Shown here: one piece after another, positions 31,801 to 48,130 of the stretch
Layout: each line of letters opens with the position of its first letter
Position numbering within the stretch: the stretch's first letter is position 1
Assembly (NCBI GenBank): GCA_963669155.1
Contig: OZ022589.1
Span: forward strand, 13,828,741 to 13,892,740
Source of the DNA: Arbacia lixula
Taxonomy: Eukaryota; Echinodermata; Echinoidea; Arbacioida; Arbaciidae
DNA: 64,000 nt
Reading direction: 5' to 3'
Made by a program: the position numbers and the translations under genes
The notes under the pieces: generated by a model
What the model was told of the DNA's origin: nothing
What the model saw: the letters and a program-made list of their open reading frames with translations, nothing else
Databases searched by the model: none

Positions 31801-34800
31801 ATATAATGTCCCATATGCACCAACGGCACATCAAGAGTAATCCTGCTTATAATGTATTGTAAACTATAATATTCAGAAAAGTTTCATTATATGTACCTTT
31901 TCTTTCACGTTTTAAACAATGATTGATTTCTATATGGTGCATGATTTTATGGCGTAAAAATAGTCTTGTTTCTTTGAGTTATCCATGTGTTATGGGAATT
32001 TTTCACAACAGAGACACATGGAAGAACACCTGTATGTTGTTTTTTTATGTTTATATATGGCAGTCACTCAAAATGGACTATTAAAGCCATTCTCATTTTG
32101 AAAACAAGAAACAAAAAATTAAGATCTGTTTTTCCATGTCTGTAGACTGACGGCGTACTCCCTGTATGCGGCTGTGTCGGTTGGTCTGCAGACGAGCGAC
32201 ATCATCGAGTACCTCAGGCGGCTCAGTAAGACGTCCATTCCCGACGGCATTGTGGAGTTCATCAAGGTAAGACCACGCACTGTCCACTCTGCTTGTGCCA
32301 TGTATCCCTTGCATTGAAAGTCATACCCAGGGTCTTCTCCTTCTTCTTGTGCTGTTATCTATAGACCCATTCATATACCATAATCATGATAATACTGCTG
32401 TTACTACCGATACACGTCTATAAGAAAGTTTCCAGTGAGCTTCTAGAAGCTCCATTCATATACACAAAAAAAACACCTAATATTGCAATGTTTTGGACAG
32501 CTGGACTCTCTCCACATCCCTAGCTATAGCTGACACGCGATGCTGACATGTTCCAATAAGCCATACGAGCAGTGCGATCAGCGAGCCACATGCCAGAGCT
32601 TAATGCACCAGGAGCAAAATTTACAGCTAGTTTGCGGAAGAAGTTTACAAGATTCGCTAACCGCAATATTGCAGTATTACTACTAGGACTCGATCTGCAA
32701 AAAAGCCGCATAAGTAGTTTTTTTAAAGGAGGTTCAAGCAAATACCTCATTATATGAGTGATTCCCATTCATATACACCGCTATCGGTAATGCATTGTAC
32801 AAGTGCTGCAAATGTTTTGTATTTTGCGGGGGGTAATGTATATAAACGGGGCTTATATATGACATAGGTGACCATTCTGAGTCAGCTCGGTTCTGTGCGT
32901 ATTTGAGGAGTTCTAAAGTTGATTACCCACTCCATTCTGCAATTCTCTTGAGACAAACTTTTGTTTCAATCAGATGATACTCTTCGTCTATTTTGTACAT
33001 ATATTGTTTATGAACCTGTGATCACCAGATTCATCTTGGTGATTATTTTAAAGCATTTGCAAAGCAGTTGTCTGTTCGGATTTCCTTTCTAATTAGTACT
33101 GTTCTTTCATCCATTTGTTTCCTAGCTTTGCACCCTGAGCTACGGGAAGGTGAAGCTTGTTCTGAAACACAACAAGTACTTTGTGGAGAGTCCATTTCCA
33201 GTAAGTATAAAGTGGAATTTTGTGCACCTCCTCTGTATAACTTCTTCATTTATGAGCTGGTATTACCTCAGAGATGTTAGTTCGCAAGCACACGTCATAA
33301 GTAAAGTTTTAAACAATACATCAGGGTTCAGAGAGTTTAAAGGGGAGTAAACCGGAATGTGAAATAGAATTGAAGAAAAGTAGAAAGAGAAATCAATGAT
33401 ATATGTGCTTATTCCTGAATGGTTCCATTATGTTTAATTCTCACTTCCGTGTGTAAATTGTGTACTTTTGATGTTTTTACTTGCACTTGAACTTGACACT
33501 CAACCAGGCAAGAGCCTGTCAGAGCATGTATAGGTGAACATAATTGAAGAAAAGCCATCTGCTTTCTGGTGATACCTTGTATTCATTGTTCATGAAAAAA
33601 AATTATATTTTTCATTCATTCATTCATTTATTCATTTCATTCATTTGATATGTACAATTAAATATATATATATATACAACATTGAAACATGTATTACATC
33701 AGCATATGAATTAAAATATGAAAATATCAATTAATAATGACTGATCGGCAATAGTGACAGTTAATAAAAATTCGGCACAGCATGAGTATTTAGGGTGACC
33801 TCATATGTAAGTATAGACAATGAAGAAAAAGGTTTACCCGTAAAAGCCTCAGTAGCTTGATAAATTTGGTACACACGTTTGTTTGTTACATGAATAAAGA
33901 ATTACATCGAAACACCTGTTTAGAACATTCCCTCTCTGTCGCTTCCTTCCAGGACGTGCTGCAGAAACTCCTGAAGGACCCTGTGATACAGCAGTGCCGG
34001 CTGAGATCTGACGTGGATGGGGAGGAGACAGAAGATGGCCTATTGGTGTCTCAGCGGGCGGCCGGGGGGTCATCTGTGCTTAAGGTGAGGGGGTAGAGGG
34101 GTGATAAGATGGTAGATGGCCTATCGGTGTCTCAGCGGGCGGCAGGAGGCGTCATCTGTGCTTAAGGTGAGGGGGTAGAGGGGTGATAAGATGGAAGATG
34201 GCCTCTTGGTGTCTCATCGGGCAGCCGGGGGGTCATCTGTGCTTAAGGTGAGAGGGTAGTGGGGTAATAAGATGGAAGATGGCCTATCGGTGTCTCAGCG
34301 GGCAGCAGGAGGCGTCATCTGTGCTTAAGGTGAGGGGGTAGAGGGGTAATAGGATGGAAGATGGCCTATCGGTGTCTCAGCGGGCGGCAGGAGGCGTCAT
34401 CTGTGCTTAAGGTGAGGGGGTAGAGGGGTGATAAGATGGAAGATGGCCTCTTGGTGTCTCAGCGGGCAGCCAGGGGGTCATCTGTGCTTAAGGTGAGGGG
34501 GTAGAGGGGTAATAAGATGGAAGATGGCCTCTTGGTGTCTTTAGCAGGTAGAAAAGAAAGATTGAAAAAAGTACTGATTGAAAGAAGTCTGTATCAAACA
34601 TTTGATGTGTCTATGAGCTTCATCTGTGCTTAAGGTGAGGGGGAGCAGGATGATGAAATGGAAGATGGCCTCTTTGTTTCTTTAGTGGGTAGAAAAGAAA
34701 GATTGGAAAAAAAGTACTGATTGAAAGAAATCTGTATCCAACATTTGATGTGTCTATAAACTCCTTAGACAAATCCAATCAATTTTCATATTTAATTTGT

Positions 34801-37800
34801 GGCTCTGCTTTGTTTTGTTTGTATTTGTTGTTTTTTTTTGGTTCCAAGGGTGGTATTACAGAACGATAACTTAGGAGAAATCTTATCCTAAGTTTAGGAT
34901 TCTCCTAAGTGGTATTCCAGAACGATCTTAACTTTTCTCCTAACTCCGCTCCTAAGATTTCTCCTAAGTTTTCTCCTATCTTTATACAAATTTATGCAAA
35001 TCATAAAGTTAAGAGGATTGGTATTCCAGAATGCGCGTAAGAGAGGATTTAGGAGAAAACTTAGGAGAGCCTCTTCCCTGTCTTAGCCATTCATAACACA
35101 CGCAATAAAAAAGAGCAGCATTTATTTGCGCAAGCGCGCGTACATAATTGATGTGTGCGCACATAGTTGCGCGACCACTAAGTTAGGATCAATCCTAGGG
35201 GGAGGGCCCGATGAGATGCTGTGATTGTGATTGGCTGTTCATAAATGAAACACTTTCCTCCATTCGCTTATAAATGCGCGCTGGGTGGGGTCAAACCCTC
35301 CCTAATTTGCATTAACCCTAATCAGGCCGGGCTTTTTGGACTGTTCTGTGGCCAGGGGGGGGTTGATTCAACCCCCCCTTGAGATCTCGGCCATCGGTCG
35401 CGCGATTGCAACAAAATATGGCACGCACGATACCTGTGTCATAATCTACAAGATTATTTTGTTATATTTTTCAAAATTGTTAATTGCTAATTTTAATCAA
35501 TTAATTATGCAAATTTAGCCCAAAATTATATAAAACACTAAATAAAAACATTTAGAGGGTAATATTTGGTTTGTATATCTTTTATAATATGTTTCACAAT
35601 TGGTGATCAAAAAAACTTTGAAAATTCATTTTAATTTTATTTATTTCATTGTTTTTGGAATTTCTTATGTATTTCTTTGCTTTTTTACTTTTGTTTTTCT
35701 TTGTTTTTTTTATTGAAAATTGTCACTGACCACTTTTCAGCCATGATTAGCATCAAATCAATCAATCAAAACTATCAAATGGAAAAATAATTAGGCTTTT
35801 ATGAGTTTTATGAACAAGCATTCTTTTCCATAGGAAATGCACACAAAATTGCAAAATTGTGCACGTTTTGGGATGACATGTGTTACGAAAATGGGCGTGG
35901 CTCCGTAATGGTATGCATGGATGTCGCGAATTTGGTCTCAAAAGATGCGCAAGACTTGAAAGAAAAAAGTCAAGAAGTGTCCCGATGAGTCGTTCTTGCG
36001 TTGCGGCATTATTGCACGAAACGTCGAGGGGGGTTGATTCAACCCCCCCCCCCCCGCCCGTTTTAGGGTTAAGAGAGTCCTAGGAGGACGTTCTGGAATA
36101 CCAATTTCTTGCTCTCTTAGGCACCTCCTAACTCGGTAACTTAGGAGAAAACTTAGGATAACTTCTGTAATACCACCTGTGGACTATTTCAGATGATAAG
36201 CTATTTTTTGACAGTCACTACAAATTGTTTGCGCACCCCTCCCTTTACAGTTGAATGCACCCAACAGCAAGGGGCAGCCTAATGGCGCGGGACCTTCCAC
36301 GTCTCAGAACGGGGAGAATGAAACCTCGGGCGAAGGGGAAGCAGCAGGGGAGCAAATACCCACAGACATTTTTGACTTCTACGACAAGATAGACAAGGAA
36401 GAGGAGGATGGGGATGATTTGACAGCCGTTTCCTTTGAAGTCATCCAAGATGAAATTGAAAATCTGCAAAAGAGGTATCGTCTTTTATTGTTTTCCAGCT
36501 TATTAGAATTTGGATCAATATGACCTTCTTCTTATCAGTCTCCTGTTTCTTCTCCTTTTTATCTCCCTCTTCTTTCATCTTTACAATATTGTTTTTTTCT
36601 TTTTCTCCTTTTTCGTTCTGCTTGTTAATTTTCTTCTAGGAAAAGTAATCAGTATATTTCCTTATGTTTTGAAGAATCCTTGGTCTGTTTAAGTACTTAC
36701 CAGTGAACATTCAAAAGTAATCATTCATTCTCTCTCTCTCTCTCTCTCTCCTGTAACACAGATGCATTGAAATGAAATATCCACTTCTTTCTTCTTATCC
36801 TTTTTCTAGTCCTCCTCATTTTCATGTCATTCTCTGTGTAACTTGTAACATAGTGATCAGGGTATCAAAAAGAAAAGACTATCCAGAAGAAATTTGTCCT
36901 TAATTCATCATTAGTCCTGAGTAAATATAGGTAATAACTGAAATCATTGAAGCAGTATAGGAAGGCTCATTGAAAGATCAACCCTTAGATATCTACATTA
37001 TTAGGGGGTGGGGGCATTATTAATTTTTCTCCTCACAGTTACCCAACTGAGCATTTTTTTTCCTGTATCCAACAGCGCAGATTCTGTCCTCTACCTTAAT
37101 GTTCCTTTTATTCCTGCTTAGTTTCTCACGATTTTGATTTCATATGATTTATTACTTTCTGCATGACTTCCAATAAATCAAATGTACATACAGTGTCCAT
37201 CCATACATAGTGCAGATCTTGTTGAACATTGATGGAGCAAAAGAAATGAAATACCTGGTACCTTATTAGAAAGCTATAAACCTACTCAAAATTAGTATGT
37301 TTGTTGCTATATTTAAGTGCAATAAGATGTTATTTGGCATAAGTAATAGTTTGTATTTTCATTATTCTGTTTTAAGTATTGTAGGTATGCTTATCTTTGT
37401 ATTTTTAATCCAACTGTTGATATTTGTATAATTAGATGTAAAATGGTTGCAATAATATATGAATAATGAAAAGGGACTTTCATAATAAGCCAAAGCTTAA
37501 TGGAATGATATATTCTGCAGGTGCATTGAGCTGGAGTATCCTCTTCTGGCCGAGTATGACTTCAGGAATGATACGAGGAACCCAGACTTGAGGTGAGACC
37601 ACCTGCAGGCACTGAAGCATGGAATGGATATTTTAGTGCACATTCTTCTTCTTTCATTATCATTATTGTGGTCAGTCAAACGTGACTGTTTTAGCCATTA
37701 TCACTTTTTGTCCAGAGCTTAAAAATATACATCTCAATATGGAAACAATGACATTTCTACATTTTTCTACATTTCTGAGAACACAAAATTGATCACTACT

Positions 37801-40800
37801 ACCCCACTACTACCCCGTTAGCACCGCAGTTGAAATACAGTTTAAAAAAAATTAAAAAAACCTTGAAAAGAAAGCAATTTGACAAAATGGACCATCAGTA
37901 CAATACCCCACTACTACTACCACCACCACTACTTTAAAAGAAAACAGTTGAAATACAGTTAATAGCATTAAAAGTGAAAACCTTTAAAAGAAAACAATTT
38001 GACAAACTTGCTCACTTCCACCCCATGTTTACTACCCATTATCATGGATATGTTTGATTTCAGTATTGATTTGAAGCCAACCACTGTGCTGAGGCCGTAC
38101 CAAGAGAAGAGTCTGAGGAAGATGTTTGGCAACGGCAGGGCGCGGGCTGGTGTCATTGTCTTACCATGTGGTAGGTACGCTTTAGGTCTTTTAGTCCCAT
38201 AGGTGATGAATGGTGTTATGTTTAACACGGGACTATCATAATATCCTGAAAATGTTTGTGAAGCTATGACTGAGATTTCATACATGTCATTGATAGGGTT
38301 TAGTGTTAATCCATGCTGAATTTCATGACTTTCTTAAAAGGGCAACCATGTCTGTAGAGCCATTCAGGCTATGGAACTTTATACAGGGCTCCGCACTAAA
38401 AAAAAAATTCTCAAGAGGTTCAGACATCCTTGTTAGCGGGTATTGGCCCCTGTTTAATTTTCTACAGAGGTCTGGAGTTCTACTATGGGTGCATTAAATC
38501 TTAAATGCCATGAACACACTACAGCTTTGCCACATGTCCTCTTCCTAACTTTCTCCACTTTTTGGTCGTTTCTTGTGAAGGTGCGGGCAAGACGTTGGTG
38601 GGGGTGACCGCGGCGTGCACGGTGCGCAAGCGGTGCATGGTACTGTGCACTTCTGGGGTGGCGGTGGAGCAGTGGCGCGCCCAGTTCCGTATGTGGTCCA
38701 CGGTCGACGACTCCATGATCTGCCGCTTCACCTCCGATGCCAAGGACAAGCCCATGGGTGCGTGCACAGAAATATCAGTCGTTCACGTCACGTTGACCCA
38801 GGTTTCAATGTATACCAGTAACAGAAACCAGTCATGTTGACCCAGGTTTCAATGTATACCAGTAACAGAAACCAGTCATGTTGACCCAGGTTTCAATGTG
38901 TACCGGTAACAGAAACCAGTCACGTTGACCCAGGTTTCAATGTATACCGGTAACAGAAACCAGTCACGTTGACCCAGGTTTCAATGTATACCGGTAACAG
39001 AAACCAGTCACGTTGATCCAGGTTTTAATGTATACCAGTTACAGAAACCAGTCACGTTGACCCAGGTTTCAATGTATACCGGTAACAGAAACCAGTCATG
39101 TTGACCCAGGTTTCAATGTATACCAGTAACAGAAACCAGTCACGTTGACCCAGGTTTCAATGTATACCAGTAACAGAAACCAGTCATGTTGACCCAGGTT
39201 TCAATGTATACCAGTAACAGAAACCAGTCACGTTGACCCAGGTTTCAATGTGTACCGGTAACAGAAACCAGTCATGTTGACCCAGGTTTCAATGTATACC
39301 AGTAACAGAAACCAGTCACGTTGACCCAGGTTTCAATGTATACCGGTAACAGAAACCAGTCATGTTGACCCAGGTTTCAATGTATACCAGTAACAGAAAC
39401 CAGTCACGTTGACCCAGGTTTCAATGTATACCGGTAACAGAAACCAGTCACGTTGACCCAGGTTTCAATGTGTACCAGTAACAGAAACCAGTCACGTTGA
39501 CCCAGGTGTCAGTGTATACCGGTAACAGAAACCAGTCATGTTGACCCAGGTTTCAATGTATACCAGTAACAGAAACCAGTCACGTTGACCCAGGTGTCAG
39601 TGTATACCGGTAACAGAAACCAGTCATGTTGACCCAGGTTTCAATGTATACCAGTAACAGAAACCAGTCACGTTGACCCAGGTGTCAGTGTATACCGGTA
39701 ACAGAAACCAGTCATGTTGACCCAGGTTTCAATGTATACCGGTAACAGAAACCAGTCATGTTGACCCAGGTTTCAATGTATACCTGTAACAGAAACCAGT
39801 CACGTTGACCCAGGTGTCAGTGTATACCAGTTACAGAAACCAGTCACGTTGTCCCAGGTTTCAATGTATACCGGTAACAGAAACCAGTCACGTTGAACCA
39901 GGTACCTGTAACAGAAACCAGTCATGTTGACCCAAGTTTCAATTTATACCAGTAACAGAAACCAGTCACGTTGAACCAGGTACCTGTAACAGAAACCAGT
40001 CACGTTAACATTAGTTTCTATGACCAGTATACAGTGAAACCTGTCAGATCATCAAGATCACATTGTTTGTTTCACATGCACAATGTTTTTTATTGCATTA
40101 ATGTAAACTGTATATAAAAGCTGCCTGCTCATGCAGACCACATTTCTAGTCTCCTTGAGATCTCTTGACCTGATTGACTAGAGTATCTGATGTGTGCCCT
40201 GTAGAGATAAGATTATAGTTCTGCATGTTTGGAGAAAGTACGTGTAATAGGTGAAGTAAATTTACTACAGTGTGTGTTTAAGTATTGTGGTATTGCAATA
40301 TTCTTGTTATCAGACGAGTTAGTATAAGAGATTGAGTTTTAGAAAATTATCGTGGGTGGAATTGTATTAAAACATGGTGGAAAGTAAAAGAAAGTTTAAA
40401 ATATAAAGTTCTTTTCTTATTTTTTCATGCTTATTGTCTCTTTCTTTCTTCATTCTATTCTTTTATTTTTCTCCCTTTTGTTTTTTTTTTGTCTCCCTGG
40501 TCTTTTTCCTCTCAGGCTGCAGTATCTGCATCAGTACCTACTCCATGGTGGCCCACACAACCAAGAGGTCCTGGGAAGCAGACCAGGTCATGCAGTGGCT
40601 TCAAACCCAGGAATGGGGCCTCATGATCCTAGATGGTAAGCGCTACAACTGTGAAAACAGCCCCCCTAGAGTGATACCAATACCATACGAGTCCAGGCCC
40701 ATGGCAGGCATTCTGTGGTAGATACTAATACAGATCCTAGTTCCAGTACTAACACCATTTCCATTCCTCCAGGCACACTCCAAGCTATCTGCACTAGATG

Positions 40801-43800
40801 CAAATACCTGCCCCAGTCCCAGTACTGATACTAATACCAATCCCAGTCCCAGTACTCATACCGATACCAGTTTCAGTCCCAGTGCTAACACCATGACCAT
40901 TCCCCCTCTGCAGGGGTGCACACGATCCCTTCCAAGCAGATCTGCCGGGTGTTCAGGCCCACTGCAAGCTATCTATAATTATACCAATACCGATCCCAGT
41001 CCCAGTGCTAACACCATTTCCATCTCTCCAGGCACACTTCAAGCTATCTGCACCAGATGCAAATACCAATCCCAGTCCCAGTGCTAACACCATTTCCATT
41101 TCTCTAGGCACACTCCAAGCTATCTGCACCAGATGCAAATACTAATCCCAGTCGAAGCGCCAACACCATTTCCATCTCTCCAGCCACACTTCAAGCTATC
41201 TACACTGAATAAAAATGCCAATCCCAGTGTCAGTGCTAAGACCAATACTAATCCTAGTCCCACTGCTAAACCCATTTCGATTCCCCCTCTCTAGAGGTGC
41301 ATATGATCCCCGCCAAGCAGTTCTGCCGGGTACTAACCCAGTTGCAAGCATTGCATGTTATCTATATAAGATACCAATCCCAGTCCCAGCACTAACACCA
41401 CTACTATTCCCCTTATCCAGAGGTGCACACGATCCCTGCCAAGCAGTTCCGCCGGGTACTAACCCATTTGCAGGCCCACTGCATGCTATCTATATTAGAT
41501 ACCAATCCCAGTCCCAGCGCTAACACCATTGCTATTCCTCTTCTCCAGAGGTGCACACGATCCCTGCCAAGCAGTTCCGCCGGGTACTAACCCAGTTGCA
41601 GGCACGCTGCATGCCATCGATATTAGATACCAATCCCAGTCCCAGCACTAACACCGTTACTATTCCCCTTCTCCAGAGGTGCACACGATCCCTGCCAAGC
41701 AGTTCCGCCGGGTACTAACCCAGTTGCAGGCCCTCTGCATTCTTTCTATATTAGATACCAATTCCAGTCCCAGCACTAACACCATTACTATTCCCCTTCT
41801 CCAGAGGTGCACACGATCCCTGCCAAGCAGTTCCGCCGGGTACTAACCCAGGTCCAGGCACACTGCATGCTATCTATATTAGATACCAATCCCAGTCCCA
41901 GCACTAACACCATTACTATTCCCCTTCTCCAGAGGTGCACACGATCCCTGCCAAGCAGTCCTGCCGGGTACTTACCCAGTTGCAGGCCCACTGCATGCTA
42001 TCTATATTAGATACCAGTCCCAGTCCCAGCGCTAACACCATTACTATTCCCCTTCTCCAGAGGTGCACACGATCCCAGCCAAGCAGTTCCGCCGGGTACT
42101 AACCCAGGTCCAGGCACACTGCAAGCTATCTATATTAGATACCAATCCCAGTCCCAGCGCTAACACCATTACTATTCCCCTTCTCCAGAGGTGCACACGA
42201 TCCCTGCCAAGCAGTTCCGCCGGGTACTAACCCAGGTCCAGGCACACTGCAAGCTGGGACTGACGGCGACGCTGGTGCGGGAGGACGACAAGATAGCGGA
42301 CCTCAACTTCCTGATCGGCCCCAAGCTGTACGAAGCTAACTGGATGGAGCTGCAGAACCGCGGCTTCATCGCCCGCGTGCAGTGTGCAGAGGTCTGGTGC
42401 CCAATGACCCCAGAGTTCTACCGCGAGTACCTCGCCATCCGCACACGCAAGAGGCTGGTGGGTAACTCTCATTTTTTATCTCGCCTACAGGAAGTTCGGC
42501 TGAGACCTCGTAATCACTTTTCCTGTTGGTCTGTTGCAGAAAAGATTTTGTTTGATTTGCTTTCATTTCTTTATTTCTGCATCAATTGTGTTCATACTTG
42601 GTACAAATGAGCCTTGGGTAATAATACCTGTGTGTTGATGAGGCTGATGAGGTCAAAGGTCATCTAGGGGTCAAATGGTCAAATGATATGAGTCCATGTG
42701 CATCATTTTTATAAGTTTTGGTTTAACTTGCTCTCATTTTGTTATTTATGCATCAATTGTGTTCATACTGGGGTCATGAGACCATATTGCATATTTTATT
42801 AATCGCTAAATCAGGAGAAAGGTGCTTCCTGAACCACCTTGTTTGAGTTTCAAGTTGATTTATTTCCCATTTGTAAGATAAGAACAGAGTAATAGTATTG
42901 ACTTCAAACAAAAGTTGTCAAACAAGAAACTTCACAATACAATGTAAAAATAACATTATAGTACGATAAATTTAGGGAGTGATATTTCACCCTAAAATGG
43001 TGTGGGGGAGGGCCAAACAAATATTTTTATGAATTCCTTTTCATCTCGTGCCTTACAGCTTCTATATGTAATGAACCCCAACAAGTTCCGGGCGTGTCAG
43101 TTCCTGGTGCGTTTCCACGAGCAGCGAAATGACAAGGTCATCGTCTTCTCCGACAACGTCTTCGCTCTGAAGCACTACGCCGTCGCCATGGGCAGGTCAG
43201 AGATAGGATTATATATTCCTGTGATATATATGCTACATCCTGACGCATCGCCAGATGATGTCATTAGTACAGTGGTATACAGTCATTGAAAGCCTTTATT
43301 GTGTAGGCAGTTGGAAGTTATTCAAGTTATTTATTTTGAATGCCTGTTTCAGATTTTTAGCGGTCCTGTACAATTTCCCTTTTCTGACATAACAATAATT
43401 ACCTGTTTATAACTATAATCATACACAAGTAAAGCTTACAGGTAATATATGCAATTTATCCTTTCTACACTTTTGATGAACAACAAAAGAACATACTACT
43501 TATTTATTATTAGAAAAAAAAAAAAAATCCGTGTAACACGTTTGCTCATACATAACAAACAATATGCTATTTATAACTATAACTATAACTAAATATATGT
43601 CATGAAACATTACCGATTTGCACATTACAAATTGTGTTTAACCACTAGCTGTCCAACATGTTTACTCATATCAACTTTCCCGGGGGGTTTCCTTGCTCAA
43701 CACTGCATGCTGTTATTCGTAATTAAGAAACTACTATTGATTTTATAATTATGATCATGTGCCCCATCAATGCTTGACCACCCATGTAAACGGGTGACGC

Positions 43801-46800: not shown

Positions 46801-47530
46801 ATGCTGAGGAGGAACGGATACCAGGAGAAGGAGGCAAAGCTGGGTCCATGGTGAGTTTAGTATAGATTTATAGGTCAAATGTCACAGGCCAAGGTCAAAT
46901 CCTAAAACTGCACTTTTTAGGTGATAACTCAAGAAATATGAGACCAAACTCTACCAAATTTGGTACAATGATAACATACATTGAGACAATTAGATGATTA
47001 TATATTGTGGGTGAGGAAGGTCAAAGGTCATAGGTCAAGATCAAAGGTAACAGGTTACCGGTAAATCAAATTATGAAATGATGCTATAAATGGGGGAAAT
47101 ACCTTGTGAAATATTTTACCAAATATCACCAAACATGGTACAATGATGATATATGACAGTGAAGTAGTGTATCATAGCCAAAACGAAAGTTTTTCTGGCA
47201 TTGGTTGATGACTTTTTACTAATCAAGATTATAGCAATACTTCAGTTTCTGCAAGGGAGGGCAGAGGTATACCTGTAGACTGCACAGAGTAAAATTTCTC
47301 TAGTTTTTTCACTAGATGAGAGTTTGATATAGTAGAGCCCACTGAACAGAGCTAGGTGTTGCCCAGAAGTCTTTCCACAATGGATTCATCATCTGTTTTC
47401 TCTGTTCCAGGTTGTTCGTCGAGTCGGCAACATGAGTTCCATGTCAGGAGCGGACGACCAGGTCTACATGGAGTACCAGTCAAAGTCTGGCAAGCATGTT
47501 CACCCGCTATTCAAGAAATTCAGGAAATGA
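28887..47530 (+). CDS. ercc3: XPB/ERCC3, TFIIH 3'-5' DNA helicase/translocase, 19 exons, 796 aa
   Basis: Exons: 28887-28914, 29366-29437, 30558-30691, 31233-31348, 32146-32266, 33126-33200, 33953-34084, 36251-36474, 37521-37592, 38064-38170, 38581-38757, 40516-40635, 42189-42457, 43059-43195, 44283-44379, 44658-44775, 45961-46109, 46728-46850, 47411-47530. All phases join (2391 bp including TGA). XPB is the dsDNA translocase of TFIIH, opening promoters and repair bubbles. Seen: basic start [10 protein letters not shown]-terminal domain ([29 protein letters not shown]); Walker A GAGKT at residues 361-365; DEVH at 459-462, split by intron 12 after the Asp codon's next base; [10 protein letters not shown] motif at 490-492; [27 protein letters not shown]-terminal MSSMSGADD and HPLFKKFRK. 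Length is close to the usual animal ~780. The variable linker in exons 7-8 is acidic and Ser/Gly-rich. Catalytic motifs look intact. Several exon edges are tandemly duplicated (separate entries). Confidence 0.95.
30085..30375 (+). pseudogene. C-terminal LINE remnant in XPB intron 2
   Basis: Broken frames read [11 protein letters not shown], stop, then [17 protein letters not shown] and LRWYGHVAR. This pattern is typical of the C-terminal region of RTE/BovB-like reverse transcriptases. Stop codons and frameshifts show it is dead. It is in the same orientation as the host gene. Confidence 0.65.
34085..34634 (+). repeat. tandem duplicates of XPB exon 7 3' end plus 5' splice site
   Basis: After the true exon 7 donor (exon ends 34084), the last ~50 bp of the exon ('gaagatggcct...gtctcagcgggc...gtgcttaag') plus 'gtgagggggtagaggggt' repeat. 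The copied exon/intron junctions fall at 34166, 34247, 34329, 34411 and 34492 (period 81-82 bp). A diverged seventh, interrupted by an unrelated ~60 bp insert, ends at 34634. Every copy keeps cttaag|gtgag. The true exon read through its own donor reaches an in-frame TAG four codons on, so use of a downstream donor would truncate XPB. Confidence 0.95.
34849..36177. mobile_element. TIR element in XPB intron 7, split by another TIR element
   Basis: The outer ends are 'gggtggtattacagaa' and 'ttctgtaataccacc' (inverted). Inside each are many copies of 'cttaggagaaa[ta]cttagga' in both orientations. The element is interrupted at 35312-36072 by the CTTAACCCTAA element. Without that insert it is about 570 bp. 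It has no coding capacity. Confidence 0.75.
35312..36072. mobile_element. TTAACCCTAA TIR element nested in the intron 7 element
   Basis: The ends are TTAACCCTAA and TTAGGGTTAA, with 'gggttgattcaaccccc' palindromes just inside. It is the inverted counterpart of 21581-22101 and is longer because of about 240 bp of extra A+T-rich middle sequence. Its position inside another TIR element makes it the younger insertion. Confidence 0.8.
36728..36751. repeat. (CT)n microsatellite
   Basis: A pure CT dinucleotide run in XPB intron 8. Confidence 0.9.
38789..40006. repeat. 44 bp minisatellite, ~28 units, in XPB intron 11
   Basis: The unit starts cacgttgacccaggtttcaa, continues tgtataccggtaacagaaac and ends cagt. 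It starts 31 bp after the exon 11 donor. Variants alternate at a few positions (cacg/catg, ccagt/ccggt, gtttcaa/gtgtcag). Near 39500-39720 a two-unit (88 bp) higher-order pattern repeats three times. Two terminal units are shortened to about 34 bp. It contains no exon sequence. Confidence 0.97.
40670..42188 (+). repeat. tandem duplicates of XPB exon 13 acceptor and exon start
   Basis: Units contain a branch-point-like 'gctaacacc', a pyrimidine tract ('attccccttctccag') and, in eight copies, the first 67 bp of exon 13. Exon-like starts fall at 40914 (older; its first codon would be Gly), 41295, 41421, 41549, 41677, 41805, 41933 and 42061, before the true start at 42189. The last seven intervals are 126-128 bp, the final six exactly 128. 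Shorter units with an AG but no exon sequence end at 40772, 41031, 41107 and 41183. Copies nearest the true exon are most like it. In each copy the exon homology ends at 'gcaagct' or 'gcatgct' and passes into 'atctatattagatacc'. Confidence 0.97.
42478..42850. repeat. dispersed ~255 bp repeat copy in XPB intron 13
   Basis: It is homologous to the tandem units at 23395-24290 ('ctgttggtctgtt', 'cttggtacaaatgagcct', 'gtgttgatgaggctgatgag'). It starts about 20 bp after the exon 13 donor. It includes a perfect AGGTCAAAGGTCA at about 42651-42663. Confidence 0.8.
44462..44515. repeat. poly-C then poly-T tracts in XPB intron 15
   Basis: A run of about 19 C, a short spacer and a run of about 14 T lie just after exon 15. 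Confidence 0.9.
44813..44930. repeat. imperfect palindrome in XPB intron 16
   Basis: 'gacgaactatcacttccgag' and what follows ('gcgatctggatgtagctatctttcc') pairs with 'ggaaagatggcgtatacatt' and 'cagatcgtcgaggaagtgatagctcgtc'. The arms are about 48 bp and imperfect, with an ~18 bp loop. It could be an old MITE. Confidence 0.6.
45148..45253. repeat. half copy of the 'CCCCGTTGCATAAAA' MITE family
   Basis: 'aaccatgcatttcatcggct', 'ggtaacc/ggtagttaccattgatgg' and 'ggtaagttttatgcaacggtgccct' match the reverse complement of much of the element at 48482-48640. Confidence 0.6.
45530..45720 (+). pseudogene. possible LINE C-terminal tail in XPB intron 16
   Basis: The frame reads [20 protein letters not shown] then LHSYYAL. 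This is the 'WN.LP....N..S...FK..L' ending typical of CR1/Daphne-type LINE ORF2 proteins. Upstream coding sequence is not recognisable. Confidence 0.4.
46285..46486 (-). repeat. arm of an 'AAAGGGATAGTTCAC' element in XPB intron 17
   Basis: It ends 'tggactatccctttaa' and contains 'ctcgcacgtgacatcaca', the reverse complement of the family at 27350 and 53052. Confidence 0.65.
46880..47060. repeat. GGTCA-rich dispersed repeat in XPB intron 18
   Basis: 'aggtcaaatgtcacaggcca', 'aggtcaaaggtcataggtca' and 'agatcaaaggtaac' repeat AGGTCA-like words. It resembles the block at 54520-55040. Confidence 0.6.
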
Positions 47531-48130
47531 TGCTGCTTGCTCGCAAACTGCAGTTTAAAGACTGATGTGAGAGCAAAGTTGTTGGGCAATGACAATAAAC
47601 TTGTTCGCACTCTTCAAGAAATTCAGAAAATGATCAAGTCTTGTTTGGACCAGACGATTAGGTCTACATGGAGTACTAGTCAGTCCAACAACACATTCAA
47701 CACGCTCTGTAAGAAATTCAGAAAATGATGCTACTTGCTCGCAAACTGCGGCTGAAAGACTGACTTGGTGGTCTTGTGAGAGCAAAGTTGATGGGTAATG
47801 TCAACAAACATGTTCAACCGCTCTTCAGGAAATTCAGAAAATGATGCTCCCCGTTGGCGAACCATGACTGACTTGTTACGAGAGCAAAGCTGTTGGGCAA
47901 AAAGCTACAAGACAATTCATGCGAGCTTCAAGAAATTAAGAAAGAGCACAGATAGTGGGCTATGTCTGCAACCCTTCTGCCACCCGTTCTTCAAGAAATC
48001 AAGATAATGACATTCATCTTCTCCATCCACAACTTCAAATAGACTTATTGGTGTTGCAAGAACAAAGTAACAATAGTTGTTTGGGTGTTCACCCATTCTT
48101 CAAGAAATATACAAAGTTTGAAGATGTCGG
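47531..48130 (+). repeat. degenerate repeats of the XPB terminal exon end and stop codon in the 3' flank
   Basis: The end of the last coding exon ('ttcaagaaattcaggaaatga') and the ~80 bp after it ('tgctgcttgctcgcaaactg') recur imperfectly. Copies end near 47633, 47728, 47843, 47943, 48007 and 48115, at spacings of roughly 60-115 bp. Near 47665 even 'ggtctacatggagta' of the exon is copied. All lie after the true stop. An AATAAA at 47594-47599 lies in the first copy and could be a poly(A) signal. Confidence 0.8.

Follow-up and report, generated by a model that had tools for sequence, protein, structure and literature searches.

Near-identical 3′ splice sites repeated before exon 13 of the XPB helicase gene of the sea urchin Arbacia lixula: probably a neutral boundary-spanning minisatellite

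The stretch considered here is a window of 64,000 nucleotides from the genome of the sea urchin Arbacia lixula, in which the exons of the essential helicase gene XPB/ERCC3 lie on the + strand between about 30.5 and 47.5 kb, as located by tblastn with a human XPB query. Just before exon 13 of this gene the end of the intron and the beginning of the exon are repeated many times over, and a ladder of acceptors stands in front of the one that continues into the rest of the exon. Exon 12 occupies 40516..40635 (+ strand, from tblastn and sequence) and ends in GATG, followed at 40636 by the donor GTAAGC with a donor score of 9.0. The true exon 13 runs over 269 nt from 42189 to 42457 (+ strand), holds the second part of the DEVH motif together with the RED motif, and is 87% identical to human XPB in tblastn. 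Its acceptor AG is at 42187-42188 and its donor at 42458, CTG^GTGGGT (with ^ at the splice border), scores 7.9. The donor scores given throughout come from one donor table, on which the seven in-register known donors of XPB score 4.7-11.0. On joining the GATG that ends at 40635 to the AGGTGCAC that opens exon 13 at 42189, D-E-V-H is read across the junction, and the initial annotation of this DNA, which had placed the start of exon 13 within the DEVH motif, is borne out at this point. In the 607-Mb assembly (606,990,701 bases in 590 contigs, with the window on contig C14) exon 13 DNA matches only the XPB locus (9 of 9 scored matches), and no second haplotype or paralogue of the array was found among these scored matches.

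The main part of the ladder is a 128-bp array at 41245..42255 (+ strand), for which Tandem Repeats Finder (TRF) gives 7.9 copies with 91% matches and a score of 1651. A unit carries, in this order, a branch-point-like site, a pyrimidine tract, the AG and the first 66-67 nt of exon 13, and the units were compared over 61 intronic and 66 exonic nt each. The exon-bearing acceptors of this array, given here by the last G of the AG, are at 41294, 41420, 41548, 41676, 41804, 41932, 42060 and 42188, the last being the true one, and are spaced by 126 bp once and then by 128 bp six times. Upstream of them is a 76-bp array (40986..41244, + strand, 3.4 copies in TRF) with short-type acceptors at 41031, 41107 and 41183. 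In the alignment these shorter units still show the end of the copied exon sequence in a GCACACTGCAAGCT-like form, and they look like 128-bp units in which the exon sequence from one CCAG motif to a second, about 52 bp, would have been removed. The oldest part of the ladder (40772..40913, + strand) begins with a further short-type acceptor at 40772 and ends with an old exon-bearing acceptor at 40913, and between the two TRF marks a 30-bp array at 40812-40904. All 13 of the listed units end in AG, a count made on units that were chosen by motif. The anatomy proposed in the initial annotation, namely seven steps of 126-128 bp preceded by four shorter units and by one older copy with exon sequence, is thus confirmed by TRF and by the unit alignment. 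Its statement that several copies still encode a 16-residue peptide of exon 13 also holds: of the eight exon-bearing copies upstream, four (41548, 41676, 41804 and 42060) encode it in full, probably because these copies are young.

Between -20 and +3, four of the 12 upstream acceptors, which we call decoys, do not differ from the true site at any base (41676, 41804, 41932 and 42060), and three of these four also match it from -23 to +16. Since the identity covers 23 nt, local acceptor strength cannot separate these four decoys from the true site. When exon 12 was joined in silico to the upstream acceptors one by one, a stop was reached in 12 of 12 cases, 9-68 residues past the junction and always before RED. 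The truncated XPB that had been predicted from the use of an upstream acceptor is therefore retained, with one refinement: although a step of 128 bp does not preserve the reading frame, 6 of the 12 total offsets (40772, 40913, 41183, 41294, 41420 and 41804) do, and these six reach stops as well. The stop that comes last, that of the 42060 acceptor, is near 42230 and still about 227 nt short of the exon 13 end. With stops at least about 200 nt before the next exon junction, nonsense-mediated decay (NMD) would be expected for the decoy products. Use of a decoy would also replace the 269-nt exon by one of 397 nt or more. A scan with the donor table gave no GT scoring at least 5 between 40700 and 42273, so that no usable donor follows any decoy, and a cassette having its own acceptor, donor and stop is not found in that interval. 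An independent decoy cassette exon is therefore unlikely. The initial annotation had left the choice between neutral noise and a tunable poison-exon device; of this, the truncation structure and the need for the last acceptor in making XPB stand, whereas 'poison exon' is the wrong term, as no separate cassette seems able to form and decoy use would instead extend exon 13.

Compared with the true unit over 127 sites, the last decoy shows 2 differences, the five before it 4-9 each and the oldest unit of the 128-bp type 35. The difference increases with distance along the array (Spearman 0.79, p 0.03, n=7), with a value of 0.67 and a p of 0.15 when the oldest unit is left out. Two sub-types, ..GGTCCAG.. 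and ..TTGCAG/A.., are interleaved along the array, which is the pattern expected under unequal exchange. When the true unit is taken together with the six copies closest to it, which leaves out 41294, variation is found at 11 of 61 intronic and at 11 of 66 exonic sites. Of the 40 coding changes counted over the seven decoys, 14 are synonymous against a random expectation of 24%, a count in which inherited changes are entered repeatedly. Neither the exon/intron divergence, which is equal, nor the synonymous count makes any coding constraint visible on the decoys, in a test of low power. The mean difference among the true unit and the six nearest copies, computed by hand from the difference matrix, is about 6%. 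This is somewhat greater than the heterozygosity of 3.5-4.4% given for Arbacia lixula (PMC11310861), and would make a polymorphism of array length plausible.

XPB holds other arrays besides the acceptor ladder. A ladder of donors is present at exon 6 (34031..34643, + strand, with the regular array over 34031..34540), where TRF gives units mostly of 81-82 bp made of the exon 6 tail and AAG^GTGAG. The true donor follows 34084, and the decoys follow 34166, 34247, 34329, 34411 and 34492, with one more after 34634 beyond the regular array. There are thus seven donors in all, six of them decoys 3′ of the true one, and readthrough gives V-R-G-stop. The two ladders have opposite polarity: at exon 6 transcription reaches the true donor before its decoys, whereas at exon 13 the true acceptor comes after all of them. 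Towards the end of the gene, seven copies of the 30-nt tail of the last exon (..HPLFKKFRK-stop) are found at 47501..48119 (+ strand). The first of these is genuine and the others are 67-87% identical at a spacing of 63-116 bp, with the stop codon missing in some; the copies start within the last exon and go on into what is presumably the 3′ untranslated region. About 27 copies of a 44-bp unit (38787-40006) take up most of intron 11, beginning about 30 nt past the donor, and no exon sequence was seen in them. Also, a 30-nt piece at 36759-36788, some 760 bp before exon 8 (which begins at 37518), resembles the first part of that exon at 80% and is possibly a very old exon copy. We did not count it as such, the match being too weak (30 nt at 80%, E 7e-4).

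Arrays at exon edges were also surveyed elsewhere in the genome, using the best-scoring Pfam matches of four families (30 of 53 for DEAD, 30 of 31 for MCM, 6 of 21 for proteasome and 8 of 19 for AAA). These make up 74 loci, and the count was taken over 73 after leaving out one incomplete locus (L084). A self-comparison script flagged tandem duplicates that cross the edge of the Pfam match. At least one tandem duplicate was present in 42 of the 73 loci, and 4 of the 73 were flagged for an edge-crossing duplicate, of which 3 were kept after inspection (L022, L056 and L085). The fourth (L070) was rejected, its repeat being confined to the intron. The value of 3 in 73 is a rough rate, as L023-L026 are near-identical copies of one sequence and a few of the others, with their long open frames, could be transposon or contaminant sequence. 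The same could be true of contigs C172, C573 and C181, which carry AAA or DEAD matches as single, long open frames. On random placement of the exons within each locus, 7.4 ± 2.25 loci are flagged as against the 4 observed (6.8 ± 2.2 without simple repeats), and 9-15% of the random draws are as low as the observed value. There is no sign that arrays are concentrated at exon edges, i.e. no enrichment is seen and depletion is not established.

Among the three loci kept, the DEAD-box exon of L022 (contig C5, 1049-1555) has an acceptor ladder of 108/127-bp units with acceptors at 1049, 1176, 1284 and 1392 and the true one at 1500. All 4 decoys lead to a stop, after 26-32 codons, and with decoy use the exon of 285 nt becomes one of 393 nt or more. 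The MCM exon of L056 is followed, 192 bp further on, by a decayed copy of its donor. L085 (contig C21) is an exon of an AAA-ATPase, which we take to be of the proteasome type, with three donors, two of them decoys. The incomplete locus L084, on the unplaced contig C423, has five donor copies as against these three and is 87% identical to L085 over 1665 columns, so that the two may represent haplotype length variation or paralogues. A separate observation was made at L083 (about 1501-1930; C10:4472412-4472810), where the Walker A region of a presumably katanin-like AAA ATPase is encoded twice, by neighbouring homologous exons that each have splice sites. This arrangement looks like a mutually exclusive pair.

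We read the XPB ladder as a neutral boundary-spanning minisatellite of the kind called a 'mirage', in which exon definition picks the last acceptor and leakage to the decoys is cleared by NMD, and we put the probability of this reading at about 85%. We infer that a 128-bp segment lying across the exon 13 acceptor was duplicated in tandem time after time, through unequal exchange or slippage during replication. The 3′-most unit would keep its link to the remainder of exon 13 and with it the role of acceptor for the gene, and the displaced units would become intron, in which the older upstream ones would decay and some would lose the exon sequence whose absence marks the 76-bp units. As several decoys locally equal the true acceptor, the choice would have to depend on context. 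Exon definition is the likeliest form of such context, since only the last acceptor has a good donor at a distance of 269 nt and all others have it at 397 nt or more, and the DEAD-box exon of L022 (285 against 393 nt or more) fits the same pattern. Rare use of a decoy would end in a premature stop and NMD, so the array would be tolerated, and as long as the last acceptor is the one chosen its growth would hardly show in the protein. The neutral reading is favoured because arrays at other exon edges are not above the random level, the intronic and exonic halves of the units diverge alike and the decoys have no good donor of their own.

Some points weigh against this reading. The three arrays in 17 exon segments of XPB are more than the sampled 3 of 73 would give, though the comparison is biased because XPB was chosen for its array. 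The sole use of the 42188 acceptor is a prediction from the sequence, and exon definition in this species is drawn from general splicing knowledge. The 4 flagged loci are not clearly below the random level and selection against harmful arrays is possible. Also, the random placement sets mostly intronic positions against coding exons, where repeats are less likely, and the test for constraint on the decoys has, as said, little power.

The stops reached from 12 of 12 upstream acceptors, together with the four decoys locally identical to the true site, would also suit a tunable ladder in which the decoys compete for exon 12 and a regulated share of XPB is sent to NMD, set by array length or by a trans-factor. 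A branch-point-like CTAAC is kept in six decoys (as CACTAAC in 41420, 41676, 41804 and 41932, and as the CGCTAAC of the true unit in 41548 and 42060), and decoy exons are known in the intron detention of OGT, both of which would agree with such regulation. But similar arrays are present in unrelated genes with no enrichment at exon edges, the decoys show no sign of constraint, and they have no paired good donors from which a decoy cassette exon could be made. Regulation of this kind finds no positive support here and we consider it improbable. Somewhat less probable again is that polymorphic array length sets the fraction of XPB lost to NMD, whereby the array would be an inherited dial of TFIIH dosage and the exon 6 ladder a second dial.

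The sequence CAG^AG^GTGCAC in six decoys and the true unit, and TAG^AG^GTGCAT in 41294, raise the idea of recursive (ratchet) splicing, whereby splicing would go first to a decoy, whose GAG^GTGCAC would in turn serve as donor for the following CCAGAG, the extra copies being removed seamlessly. Joining from GT to AG at equivalent points would indeed restore GAT GAG GTG. However, on the donor table the score of GAG^GTGCAC is 3.3 and that of the 41294 form 4.7, against 4.7-11.0 for the known donors of XPB. An acceptor abutting a good donor is thus not found in these units, the 41294 form only equalling the weakest known donor listed (4.7), and we regard this route as very unlikely. A false expansion of the repeat during assembly is the explanation to which we give the least weight. 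One amphioxus mirage was indeed aberrantly assembled in a draft genome (PMC3087553). Against this, the XPB units hold private differences, other such loci are present in the genome, and the Arbacia lixula assembly (607.91 Mb, 22 chromosomes and 676 unplaced scaffolds) is described as built from HiFi and Omni-C data with >99% back-mapping (PMC11310861), so HiFi reads should span the array of 1.5 kb.

The locus offers a natural experiment, as locally identical acceptors compete in one intron of a gene that also has a donor ladder of opposite polarity. Under a choice by order of transcription, leakage is expected from the acceptor ladder but not from the donor ladder; under exon definition it is expected from neither. 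Of the systems with which the ladder may be compared, a study of the potato RNA-dependent RNA polymerase gene reportedly found intron gain by tandem genomic duplication inside the gene. The duplication in XPB is also internal to the gene, but a new intron is claimed in potato whereas no decoy is seen as an exon/intron boundary in XPB. In OGT, the decoys of the detained introns are said to be exons with a donor of their own. Non-productive splice sites within the intron could compete with productive splicing in XPB as in OGT, with the difference that the XPB decoys have no good donor.

In amphioxus, the globin gene BflGb6 has the end of an intron and the start of exon 2 repeated in units of 150-160 bp, with 6 and 3 units in two haplotypes, and in BflGb9 the mirage repeats the 3′ boundary of the exon. 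Many units of these globin mirages keep their AG/GT signals, homogenisation takes place within a cluster, and reverse-transcription PCR (RT-PCR) suggested normal splicing; such boundary-spanning arrays have been proposed as raw material for intron gain (PMC3087553). Mirages are also described in amphioxus Adh3 (units of 10-72 bp), troponin C (TnC) and PGBD5 (60 and 108 bp), and the repeats over 5′ or 3′ splice sites of Adh and TnC are reported to cause no aberrant mRNA (PMC3902484). Like these, the XPB ladder consists of tandem units holding the intron end and adjoining exon sequence, its units of 128 and 76 bp are inside the mirage range of 10-160 bp reported there (PMC3087553), splice signals are kept, and both kinds of boundary are affected (acceptors at exon 13, donors at exon 6). 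The cases differ in that BflGb6 and BflGb9 are cephalochordate globins for which RT-PCR and haplotype variation have been seen, whereas XPB is an essential helicase of an echinoid known here from the genomic DNA. Adh3, TnC and PGBD5 also belong to the other lineage, and the 13 acceptors of XPB, with the true one and the short units included, are more than the repeat counts drawn on here from PMC3902484. No echinoderm mirage is among the matches listed from the open-access literature on sea urchins or echinoderms and repeats at splice sites. Sharing the structural features tested, the XPB ladder is most likely an echinoid case of the mirage class and, added to those of amphioxus, it suggests that the process is wider among deuterostomes.

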